From a virus, in the IMG/VR virus record IMGVR_UViG_3300001352_000058, positions 1-28,311 of that record: a stretch of 28,311 nt of DNA. One strand, 5' to 3'. A program made the translations under genes and the position numbers. Below, piece after piece: positions 2,364 to 24,549 of the stretch (position 1 is the stretch's first letter; every line of letters begins with the position of its first letter). The notes under the pieces were generated by a model, which was not told the DNA's origin, searched no databases, and saw only the letters and a list, made by a program, of their open reading frames with translations.

Positions 2364-3365
2364 TTAAGAGTTAAACATCAGGCTGAGTGCATCTTCAATG
2401 CTCCCAGACCTTTTAAGGTTGGTCTTCTTCTGCAAAACTTCCTTGTTGCTTTTCACCAGCTTCTTTGAGCCTGCCTTGATCGGTGTCGTTTTGGGACGTG
2501 CCGACTGAGCCTTCTCATCTGCTTTCTTCTTGCCACTCATAATCTCGCGGTACTTCATCGCATCACGCAACACGTGCAGTGCGCGACTCTCTACCACCTG
2601 ACTAATCTCATCCGCCGTGTAGCCGTAAGCCGCGCCAGCTTGCAAGATCTGATCCTTAAACTTGCCAGCGTGTGCTGGGTTTGCAAGTTCAGGAATAACG
2701 CTCTTCAGGTTTTCTACCTCCTGTTGGAGATATGCCTGTCGAGCCACCTGCTGTGCCTGACTCTGCTGTGCCGACAACTGCTGGAACTGAGCCTGCTGTT
2801 GCTGGTACTGCGCTACCTGCTCGTCATAGTTCAGTTTTGCTTCCATGTACCCAATTGGGTCGGAGTCAAAAAGTTCCCTTGTCGGAGCCTTTGGAGGAGT
2901 AGCAATCTGTCCACCTTGAATCTGTTGATACAACTGGGAGATCTGCTGTCTTTCATTCAATAAGGCCGCATAGACTTCTTCCGCTTGCTTTCGCTGGGCG
3001 GCGGCTTCCTGCATACCTTTTTGGACAAATTGTTGACCACTGTAACCTCGCTTCAACTCATTCAGGGTGACCTGTTTTTCCGTGCCATCAACTTTGATGG
3101 TGTAAACAGGTTCTGTCTTGTTGGCTTCGTCAGCGTCTTCTTCTTCGTCCTCCGCGTCGTCTTCGTCATCATCATTTGAGTCTTCTGACTCTTCTGAATC
3201 GTCTTCAGATTCTGCGTTTGCTTCTTCGGTGTCGTTGGTCTCTTCCGGTTCAGCTACTTCGTTAGTGTCGGTTTCTTCGTTTTCAACACTTTCAGGTGCA
3301 ATCATAGCACTAACTGCACTCTCAATGCTACCATCAAGTGCTACTTTTTCAGTCGTTTGATCCAC
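2364..3365 (-). CDS. Capsid scaffolding protein (333 aa, GTG start)
   Basis: Directs procapsid assembly and is normally removed or expelled later. The N-terminal 95 residues are extremely acidic, with long Glu/Asp/Ser runs; a middle coiled coil is very Gln/Ala-rich (AQYQQQQAQFQQLSAQQSQA); the C-terminus is basic (KKADEKAQSARPKTTPIKAG), the charge distribution typical of scaffold proteins whose C-terminal tail contacts capsid. The frame opens with GTG at 3365 (VDQTTEKVALDG), with no suitable ATG nearby, and overlaps the end of the upstream 87-aa gene by 25 nt. Position between portal and capsid supports the call. Confidence 0.85.
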   Translation of the reverse strand: MDQTTEKVALDGSIESAVSAMIAPESVENEETDTNEVAEPEETNDTEEANAESEDDSEESEDSNDDDEDDAEDEEEDADEANKTEPVYTIKVDGTEKQVTLNELKRGYSGQQFVQKGMQEAAAQRKQAEEVYAALLNERQQISQLYQQIQGGQIATPPKAPTRELFDSDPIGYMEAKLNYDEQVAQYQQQQAQFQQLSAQQSQAQQVARQAYLQQEVENLKSVIPELANPAHAGKFKDQILQAGAAYGYTADEISQVVESRALHVLRDAMKYREIMSGKKKADEKAQSARPKTTPIKAGSKKLVKSNKEVLQKKTNLKRSGSIEDALSLMFNS

Positions 3366-22518: not shown

Positions 22519-23254
22519 CTTGCGGCCTTTTGAATGCTGAGTTAATCTGGTCTCGGATGTGCGCTGGCATTGGAACGGCTTTTTCCCTGTCAGCCATAAT
22601 CTCTTTGAGCGCGGCGTCTTGGTTGGCTGGTGCTGGCACAGTAGTCCGAGCAACGTCAGCCGCAACTTGGGCAAATGTCTGCTTGTCAGCTTTTTGTGAG
22701 CGAACCCAGTTGCGCCATGTTGCGTCCCATTTCAGCTTAACGCCCTTAGAGCCAGCAACCGATGTCCAGTAATCCCTAAACTCCTCCAAAACCTTACGCA
22801 AGTTCAGGTCTGGTCGTTCAGACTTTGACCACTCAGCTAATTCAGCATCAGGCTTCCAATCGGCTGGCAACCGCGACCCGCGTGTTGCACTTCTACTCTT
22901 CTTTGTCTCTGTCTCTGTCTCTGTCTCTGTCTCTGTCTCTGGTATAGCATCTTGATAGCACTCTGCTAGCACTTCGCTATCATCTACAAAAAAACCTTTA
23001 TCAATCAAATGCTTAAGACCAGTCTTTATGTCTGACTCAGGCATACGCAACCTAAAGGTCAATTCATCAATGGAGGCATCAAAAGTGCCATCCTTTGACT
23101 CACTCGCTAGCAACCACAACAAAGGTGCTAGCGCCTTGCTAGCAGTTGGTAGCGTCATAAAAGCACGGTCGTTAAGCAACTCCTTGTGCAACTTAATCCA
23201 AGGAGGGCAACGGTCTTTGTAGTGTTGAAAGTGTGACCAGTTTTTAGGCTTCAT
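22511..23254 (-). CDS. Replication initiator-like protein with internal repeats (247 aa)
   Basis: The ATG at 23254 (MKPKNWSHFQHYKDRCPPWI) is chosen; an earlier ATG is possible but inside the upstream gene. The N-terminal region (IKLHKELLNDRAFMTLPTAS, LLWLLASESKDGTFDASIDE, LTFRLRMPESDIKTGLKHLI, DKGFFVDD) is a winged-helix of the kind found in phage replication proteins. A linker with six Glu-Thr pairs separates it from a C-terminal part (ELAEWSKSERPDLNLRKVLE, FRDYWTSVAGSKGVKLKWDA, TWRNWVRSQ) common in helicase-loader/initiator-like proteins. As in lambda O, repeated DNA motifs lie within the gene. ATPase motifs are absent. Confidence 0.78.
   Translation of the reverse strand: MKPKNWSHFQHYKDRCPPWIKLHKELLNDRAFMTLPTASKALAPLLWLLASESKDGTFDASIDELTFRLRMPESDIKTGLKHLIDKGFFVDDSEVLAECYQDAIPETETETETETETKKSRSATRGSRLPADWKPDAELAEWSKSERPDLNLRKVLEEFRDYWTSVAGSKGVKLKWDATWRNWVRSQKADKQTFAQVAADVARTTVPAPANQDAALKEIMADREKAVPMPAHIRDQINSAFKRPQDA
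22905..22940. repeat. Six perfect GTCTCT hexanucleotide repeats
   Basis: GTCTCT occurs six times without interruption. On the minus strand it encodes (Glu-Thr)6 in the linker of the replication protein. Slippage would add or remove whole Glu-Thr pairs without shifting the frame. Confidence 0.95.
22942..23154. other. Candidate replication origin: phased YGCTAGCR-like repeats
   Basis: Two clusters of 8-bp GCTAGC-like sites occur in the replication gene. First cluster at 22942, 22953, 22964 and 22975 (exactly 11 bp apart; the third is the palindrome TGCTAGCA). Second cluster at 23105, 23126, 23137 and 23147. An A/T-rich stretch with seven A lies between (about 22983-23015). Helical phasing across different codon phases argues for a DNA-level role such as initiator binding. 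Confidence 0.55.
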
Positions 23255-23528
23255 CACTACTCTCCTCTGAGCCGTGATAAGCCTCATGCCTCAATTGTTT
23301 GGCTTGCTCAACAAGATATTCAAACCGTTCAATTGGGATTTTGACCATGCCGATGTTCTGCAACTGAGACTCGACAAATTCTTCAATGACGACATTCCCT
23401 TCGCCATCACCATATACAAGCAGTTCGTTCTGCTTTTCAAAACCAATGGGCATAGTGCTCACCTTTTCAACGCTCCCTAGAAAAGAAACAACGGCGGGAG
23501 AGGGAGGAACTCCATTCGGTCTGCTCAT
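23244..23528 (-). CDS. Hypothetical acidic protein upstream of replication gene (94 aa)
   Basis: Unrecognised. Starts MSRPNGVPPSPAVVSFLGSV; the more typical globular part begins near residue 26 (MPIGFEKQNELLVYGDGEGN, then VVIEEFVESQLQNIGMVKIP and IERFEYLVEQAKQLRHEAYH), with an acidic tail. The ATG at 23528 lies about 22 nt downstream of the probable transcription start of the promoter at 23557-23584; the internal ATG at 23453 also has a usable GGTGAG upstream. It overlaps the replication gene start by 11 nt, so coupling is likely. Confidence 0.65.
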   Translation of the reverse strand: MSRPNGVPPSPAVVSFLGSVEKVSTMPIGFEKQNELLVYGDGEGNVVIEEFVESQLQNIGMVKIPIERFEYLVEQAKQLRHEAYHGSEESSDEA

Positions 23529-23556
23529 GACTTCAGACCTAGCCGCGTTTCAAACC

Positions 23557-23845: not shown

Positions 23846-24045
23846 TTTTCTCTCCTTTGAATCTCACGTTGTAAATACCAAACCGCTTTTTCCAAGTCTT
23901 CAATGGCGTCGTTTTTAAGGTCAGCACGCCAGATGTACTTGACAGCGTTGCCAAGACAGAAGTTCATGTGCTCGGTTATGTCTATGCACTCAACGTGGCT
24001 TGGGTGAGCCATGTAGTGCGCTGGGTTGTTGACTGGGTCGTGCAT
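23842..24045 (-). CDS. DUF3310 protein (67 aa)
   Basis: MHDPVNNPAHYMAHPSHVEC then IDITEHMNFCLGNAVKYIWR and ADLKNDAIEDLEKAVWYLQR. D-P-V-N-x-P-x-H-Y, the E-C-I-D-I-T and N-x-x-K-Y-x-W-R blocks are the DUF3310 signature. The family is related to a segment of T7 gp1.7 (nucleotide kinase-like), and some members may affect nucleotide metabolism; that link is from family knowledge. TAATG junction with the upstream gene. Confidence 0.9.
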   Translation of the reverse strand: MHDPVNNPAHYMAHPSHVECIDITEHMNFCLGNAVKYIWRADLKNDAIEDLEKAVWYLQREIQRREK

Positions 24046-24218
24046 TAGTCTGTGCCTCCAAAATTTTCCTTGTTCAAGTCGTTGCGCTGGATGTCCTCAA
24101 TCGCTTGGTGAGCGTTGTACATCAGGCTGTTCAGCCACATGATGGCTTCGATCTCTGTGTCAGGCTGTTGCCGCACCAGTGCGTTTAGGTCTGCCATAAA
24201 ATTATTCCAAGTTTGCAT
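24045..24218 (-). CDS. First leftward early gene, hypothetical (57 aa)
   Basis: The start at 24218 (MQTWNNFMADLNALVRQQPD) has AGGAGACGATT before it; a longer frame extends 12 codons into the promoter region but lacks that site. The rest is a helical protein (TEIEAIMWLNSLMYNAHQAI). It is the first gene after the leftward promoter, a typical place for small early regulators or host-takeover proteins. Function unknown. Its stop overlaps the DUF3310 ATG (TAATG). Confidence 0.65.
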   Translation of the reverse strand: MQTWNNFMADLNALVRQQPDTEIEAIMWLNSLMYNAHQAIEDIQRNDLNKENFGGTD

Positions 24219-24240
24219 AATCGTCTCCTGTGTTGGCTCA

Positions 24241-24269
24241 ACTATGACCCACAAAATTATTTTTGTAAA
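24241..24269 (-). promoter_or_regulatory. Main leftward early promoter
   Basis: Minus-strand -35 TTTACA (24264-24269, 5 of 6) and -10 CATAGT (24241-24246, 4 of 6) with 17-nt spacing, about 22 nt before the first leftward start codon. It lies directly against the putative operator at 24271-24285. Confidence 0.65.
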
Positions 24270-24332
24270 TTAGGGAAACTACCTAGAAATATCTTGGTTT
24301 TTCCATGTAATAATAAACACATCGCAACACAA
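24270..24332 (+). promoter_or_regulatory. Rightward promoter/operator module 1
   Basis: Contains the 15-bp site TAGGGAAACTACCTA (24271-24285), an extended -10 TGTAATAAT (-10 AATAAT at 24309-24314) with no good -35, and AACACATCGCAACACAA (24316-24332) at the expected transcription start. The same parts in the same order and spacing recur at 26461-26522. Confidence 0.7.
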
Positions 24333-24345
24333 AGGGAGAAACAAA

Positions 24346-24549
24346 ATGACAGCACAAAAAAATACTAGTTACATTTGCAGGTTAGTTCTTGCGGCTCATT
24401 TGCGTGCCGCCAAGCGTTTCGGAGTTGACCTAAAGCACGTTGCTTGCGTGATGGGTGAGTCAGATATTGTCTCAAAAGTTCGCAACAGCACCGGTTTACT
24501 CAAGACAGTCCGGATGGCCAATGGCAAGTATCAACACGTTGTTTGTTAA
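24346..24549 (+). CDS. First rightward early gene, hypothetical (67 aa)
   Basis: Starts MTAQKNTSYICRLVLAAHLR and includes AAKRFGVDLKHVACVMGESD and KVRNSTGLLKTVRMANGKYQ. Basic, mostly helical, possibly DNA- or RNA-binding by composition only. AAAGGGAGAAACAAA precedes ATG. Being first behind a phage early promoter, it may be a regulator or host-modifying protein; no family recognised. Confidence 0.65.
   Translation: MTAQKNTSYICRLVLAAHLRAAKRFGVDLKHVACVMGESDIVSKVRNSTGLLKTVRMANGKYQHVVC

Follow-up and report, generated by a model that had tools for sequence, protein, structure and literature searches.

The phage DNA analysed here (hereafter the window, the whole stretch of 28,311 nucleotides) harbours a replication gene with two arrays of short palindromes of the GCTAGC type, and these arrays are selected as DNA-level signals. 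Together with an adjacent purine tract, they most likely represent iterons for the protein encoded by the same gene and constitute a putative origin of replication within the initiator gene. Very probably, the encoded protein docks at these palindromes to begin replication of the phage DNA. Replication origins have been assigned in hardly any uncultivated phages, and this simple sequence pattern points to a candidate origin in hundreds of contigs. It also marks one in cultivated phages whose replication gene is annotated only by name, including phiPLPE, Cr-LKS3, and many Mycobacterium phages. The features of the element are listed in Table 1.

Table 1. Features of the initiator gene and its putative origin (positions in the window)
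Feature	Position	Strand	Basis or remarks
Replication gene (initiator / helicase-loader type), 258 aa	22511..23287	-	PHROG matches; second possible start codon at 23254
N-terminal winged-helix-like domain, proposed palindrome reader	22931..23254	-	AlphaFold model, structural matches, weak DnaD_N
DnaT-like C-terminal domain	22676..22873	-	Pfam DnaT E 0.026 (below cut-off), primosomal-protein PHROGs
Array A (cluster 2)	23105..23154		23105, 23126, 23137 perfect GCTAGC; 23147 one mismatch
Array B (cluster 1)	22942..22982		22942, 22953, 22964 (perfect), 22975; exact 11-bp steps
(GAGACA)n purine tract of the coding strand, encodes the ETETET linker	22896..22941	-	Tandem repeat; proposed opening / helicase-loading side
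A/T-rich stretch adjoining array B, alternative candidate for first opening	22983..23020		Lowest GC and stability bin in relatives

Palindrome units and purine tract in the window

Exactly four GCTAGC hexamers are present in the window, at positions 22965, 23106, 23127, and 23138. All four lie inside the initiator gene, as the first-pass annotation had reported. Their total is not raised compared with dinucleotide shuffles (4 against 6.3 expected), and only their clustering is unusual. The annotation had listed eight sites of the YGCTAGCR type in two clusters. Seven of them, at 22953, 22964, 22975, 23105, 23126, 23137, and 23147, match with at most one mismatch. The unit at 22942 (GTATAGCA) departs from the consensus at two positions, although it is in register with the 11-bp series. 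Seven near-matches fall within the densest 220 bp, whereas resampling the window 150 times with an order-2 Markov model gave 2.7 on average and never more than 5. The site positions confirm the stepping claimed for the first cluster (11, 11, and 11 bp), and the second cluster has steps of 21, 11, and 10 bp. The units occupy all three codon phases, in line with the claim that the repeats fall in different phases.

Array A encodes residues ~45-61, within the N-terminal domain, and array B, ~140 bp apart from it, encodes residues ~102-116 at the end of that domain. The location in the linker-coding part of the gene, as initially proposed, is only partly correct. The linker is encoded by the adjacent repeat, which on the plus strand reads (CTCTGT)8 and had been missed. 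This repeat is part of the element, so the element is larger than first noted. The A-rich stretch described between the clusters exists, but it is modest, with a lowest 20-nt GC bin of 0.39 in relatives.

The purine tract belongs to the conserved element. The coding-strand purine run after array B has a median length of 62 nt in the family of the window (A1) and 61 nt in a sister family (A2), compared with 15 nt in control windows; the GC content of the tract is ~47%. Codon usage in the A1 tract is strongly biased: glutamate is encoded by GAG in 90% of the cases (46% elsewhere in the gene), threonine by ACA in 90% (26%), and arginine by AGA in 77% (11%). Therefore, the amino acids of the linker appear to be dictated by the DNA, and ETETET would be a protein linker with a sequence set by a DNA signal.

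Conservation of the arrays in related genes

The search with the window protein revealed 80 viral loci. Loci with the same N-domain possess three to six GCTAGC, located at homologous positions, whereas the hexamer is scarce or absent in their flanks. No GCTAGC was found in the gene of loci matching the C-domain only, leaving out short fragments as well as L078 and L080, which are diverged. The counterparts of array A in relatives are GCTAGC at domain positions 111, 122, and 143. Array B is also kept, and three GATATC are present at the homologous place in the sister family.

Shuffling of synonymous codons within each gene yielded 0.2-1.8 GCTAGC, against the three to six seen. In 95 non-redundant related genes, reduced to <85% DNA identity, 407 GCTAGC were seen and 62.6 were expected from such shuffles (maximum of 400 shuffles, 85). 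A third gene set had 103 sites against 14.5 expected, with a maximum of 26. Because the synonymous-codon null is exceeded to this extent, the repeats are regarded as DNA-level signals. The density of GCTAGC is 153-fold higher in the array region than in the flanks. The codon alignment revealed that rare choices, such as CTA for leucine, are retained at the sites, and that adjacent third positions vary. Extra GCTAGC at other codons were found in L021, L026, L027, and L033, and the distant L305 (33.6% identity) carries GCTAGC at other positions. The first-pass annotation had proposed that relatives without conservation of the sites beyond the amino acids would speak against it; the comparison was run, and its outcome favours the annotation.

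When 2.9 million viral contigs were scanned with the pattern GCTAGC-N5-GCTAGC-N15-GCTAGC, without regard to the encoded protein, at least 119 loci were detected. The match was located in the N-domain gene in 117 of the 119 listed, always at domain position 111. A control scan with the mirrored palindrome CGATCG at the same spacing detected six loci. The two exceptions are L259 and L275. In L259 (11962-12229), GCTAGC arrays with 11-bp steps lie within or close to an ORF of 227 aa that adjoins an FtsK-like ATPase gene. No recognisable N-domain or initiator was found at these arrays, which possibly belong to another user of the palindrome. In L275 (3805-3842), where no N-domain was found, three GCTAGC (11 and 21 bp) are followed by a run of TTCGCGA-type repeats.

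Six members, L125, L133, L152, L154, L162, and L412, lack a perfect GCTAGC. The four that were read (L125, L133, L152, and L412) retain the 11-bp series as GATAGC, GCAAGC/GCTTGC, and GCTATC units, a hint that variants are tolerated or that the specificity is drifting. Avoidance of stray sites in a class-specific manner was considered and rejected: outside the gene, both palindromes are similarly depleted in the A1 and A2 classes, and avoidance of stray sites was no stronger than for other palindromes.

Palindromes of other initiator families

The palindrome goes with the N-domain family, being GCTAGC in the family of the window, GATATC in the sister family, and TCGCGA in actinophages. The sister family (QHFKDRRPPW type) comprises 77 distinct loci in all, including Xanthomonas phage PBR31, and its N-domain is clearly homologous to that of the window (hhalign 99.9%). 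Its GATATC sites are typically found at domain positions 264, 275, and 286, use three codon phases, and are 112-fold denser than in the flanks. Ninety-seven GATATC were counted in this family, compared with 25.5 expected from synonymous-codon shuffles (maximum 40). GCTAGC and GATATC differ by one base per half-site, and their predicted readers differ at Y12 versus F12, among other residues. All 32 GATATC genes compared have F after QH, and all 142 GCTAGC genes have Y. However, this difference is confounded with ancestry, because the GATATC genes form one family.

The third family corresponds to the RepA-like initiators of actinophages (Ksquared gp66 and its kin). They share a homologous DnaT-like C-domain with the window protein and have the same layout, with TCGCGA in two clusters at 10-11-bp steps and a purine tract, (GGAACAG)n, after the arrays. 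The TCGCGA sites of Ksquared are located at 158, 169, and 179, and at 371, 382, and 392. In 44 non-redundant actinophage genes, 279 TCGCGA were found, whereas 34.6 were expected (synonymous-codon shuffles, maximum 51). The TCGCGA pattern scan detected 89 viral loci. Together with two named phages these make 91 loci, 67 of which carry the actinophage N-domain with at least three TCGCGA in the gene. The actinophage N-domain is not alignable to that of the window (hhalign 0.6%), and therefore the common layout may result from common descent or from convergence. Initiator families with different palindromes provide a natural test set for the choice of sites by initiators.

Mycobacterium phage Ksquared gp66 (L471:2162-3031) and its relatives (L473-L561) suggest where the origin may lie in many phages of Mycobacterium and Gordonia. 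No palindrome runs were found in the Sbash repA (L472), nor in the C-domain-only relatives L030, L035-L037, L040-L043, L045, L050, L054, and L079. An identification of the actinophage genes with the RepA of PMC7157519 was dropped, as the RepA of phage Miko described there belongs to a different, plasmid-type family.

Arrays outside the initiator ORF

The genome search revealed prophage-like loci in Massilia, Noviherbaspirillum, and others. In many of these loci, and in related viral contigs, the N-domain ORF of ~100 aa stops before the array, and an AGAAGAG tract follows the array. Counting non-redundant prophage or phage loci, 18 have both the array and the purine tract outside the initiator ORF, and the 11-bp step is the commonest in these displaced arrays. 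Another ORF, mostly of ~550 aa, covers 13 of the 18 arrays; in L090, the one tested, it encodes a DEAD/ResIII-type helicase. The remaining five (L097, L099, L394, L397, and L398) have no covering ORF of at least 50 aa on that strand, although an antisense ORF is present in L394. A protein-level reason cannot explain these arrays. In a lineage other than Massilia, the N-domain ORF of L410 is followed, after its stop codon, by an array of GCAAGC units and a GACAGA tract (3276-3345).

Initiator protein and proposed mechanism

The window protein consists of an N-terminal winged-helix-like domain, followed by the ETETET linker and the DnaT-like C-domain. It matched phrog_26426 'replication protein' (E 9.5e-34) and phrog_3992 'primosomal protein' (E 3e-19), and its residues 29-99 matched phrog_186 'DnaD-like helicase loader' (E 2.8e-6). 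Weak matches to Pfam DnaD_N were detected in 13 of 67 relatives. The search of solved structures by sequence gave nothing meaningful.

The AlphaFold model of the N-domain has a pLDDT of 80.6. The top VIA rows for this model correspond to the N-domains of plasmid RepA initiators (Z 6.5-6.7, rmsd 3.5-4.8, 78-83 residues); the next unrelated winged helix has a Z of 6.0, and in VIA, common arrangements also reach a Z of 6.7. The E-values of Foldseek on the model were not significant, and the PLSDB search found no relatives of the N-domain on plasmids. Genes for replication are neighbours of the initiator gene in relatives, such as a DnaC-like gene downstream in phiPLPE and phiV208, and DnaB in Cr-LKS3.

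We infer binding, strand opening, helicase loading, and origin activity for elements of the window type. Binding by the initiator and an origin in cis are suggested because the palindrome is coupled to the N-domain, the units follow helical steps, the neighbours are replication genes, and the top structural matches are plasmid RepA domains. In the proposed mechanism, the palindromic hexamers would be bound by the N-terminal winged-helix domain, presumably in dimeric form and along a single face of the helix, in accordance with the 10-11-bp steps. Arrays A and B would be brought together, and the strain created in this way would open the DNA in the strand-asymmetric purine tract or beside it. 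Helicase loading would then fall to the DnaT-like C-domain, acting with host DnaB or with a phage helicase or loader encoded by a neighbouring gene.

The GC skew changes sign near 24.2 kb (24000-24500), where transcription diverges, which is indistinguishable from a coding-strand effect and uninformative on the origin. Upstream of the initiator gene, at 23475-23549 on the minus strand, there is a weak match to the Rfam int-alpA sRNA (25.3 bits, gathering score 35.8, E 0.019).

Alternative roles of the arrays

Initiators often regulate their own genes, and the same evidence for family-specific putative binding sites would also fit an operator, through which the protein would repress or adjust transcription by binding to the palindromes of its gene, with the origin elsewhere. 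We consider this unlikely, as the sites are located well inside or after the gene, away from the promoter, and an operator has no need for a conserved purine tract of ~60 nt. The roles of operator and origin are compatible and do not exclude each other.

Arrays of short palindromes also occur in partition sites, and the GCTAGC arrays of L259 adjoin an FtsK-like ATPase gene with no recognised initiator, which would agree with a function in partition, packaging, or host-factor recognition. Such a function is quite improbable for the window, since each family of initiator N-domains has a palindrome of its own, a pattern that a host factor or packaging protein would not explain.

Conserved amino acids or RNA structure are extremely improbable as the origin of the repeats, and the synonymous test refutes them as the only cause. 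The residues encoded at the repeats (ASKALAP, LLAS, and VLAE) are themselves conserved, and RNA folding is slightly, but only weakly, better than in shuffles (z -1.69). Yet the synonymous nulls are exceeded, three codon phases are used, arrays also occur outside the initiator ORF and even where no ORF covers them, and no Rfam family matches over the array. The earlier statement that protein constraint does not suffice for the repeats thus holds, given the synonymous null, the 117 of 119 listed DNA matches in the gene, and the persistence of arrays beyond the initiator ORF.

Comparison with known systems

The first-pass annotation had compared the element with the origin in the lambda O gene, and this parallel is supported by the layout, in which iterons are followed by a purine tract and relatives are adjacent to DnaC or DnaB (PMC5043065). 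In lambda, the origin lies inside the O gene and comprises initiator-specific repeats and an adjacent tract of nearly all purines on one strand, and the helicase-loading partner is encoded by the next gene (PMC5043065, PMC7466680). Similar to lambda O, the window combines repeats in the initiator gene with a strand-asymmetric purine tract, here recognised from sequence alone. However, the iterons of lambda are 19-bp inverted repeats, whereas those of the window are 6-bp palindromes at 10-11-bp steps in two clusters, and the lambda tract is A+T-rich, whereas the tract here is about half GC. The window protein had no match to the Pfam O family up to E 10 and no O-like PHROG.

Among solved folds, those that appear closest to the N-domain model are RepA_N-type plasmid initiators of the pSK41/pAD1 group (4pql, 4pta, 4pt7, and 5kbj). 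Plasmids of the RepA_N type have their origin iterons within the rep coding sequence, and the array of the window is likewise inside the gene. Nonetheless, these initiators belong to Gram-positive plasmids and use other iteron sequences. Pfam RepA_N had no match in the window protein or in the 67 relatives, and the RepA_N search of the own genome was uninformative, as the control genomes gave no signal either. Iterons and an origin inside the initiator gene are already a known kind of arrangement, as in lambda O and RepA_N plasmids, and the window gene belongs to neither family by its sequence. The DnaD-like helicase loaders are related to the window protein through the profile match to phrog_186 and the weak DnaD_N matches in relatives, and we know of no DnaD protein described with an origin in its own gene.

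No description of GCTAGC or TCGCGA arrays in phage initiators was found in the open-access literature. Within this literature, the short palindromic iterons at 10-11-bp steps, the GA tract, the palindrome switch, and the displaced version look undescribed. It is rather likely that they represent an undescribed and widespread class of phage origins, located in or beside the initiator gene, with 6-bp palindromic iterons at 10-11-bp steps and a purine tract that dictates the linker. In this class, the palindrome would have been swapped between families, and the origin of some prophages would have been displaced from the initiator ORF.

Among cultivated phages, the gp04 of Iodobacter phage phiPLPE has an N-domain with 54.5% identity to that of the window and five GCTAGC in its gene. 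The 'replication protein O' of Cylindrospermopsis phage Cr-LKS3 has an N-domain with 60% identity and six GCTAGC in its gene. The C-terminal parts of both proteins are unlike that of the window protein; both are annotated by name only, and their arrays are undescribed. The record of Limnohabitans phage DC33 (L304, PQ492659.1) has 39 kb and 52 annotated features and is filed under Inoviridae, which its size does not fit.
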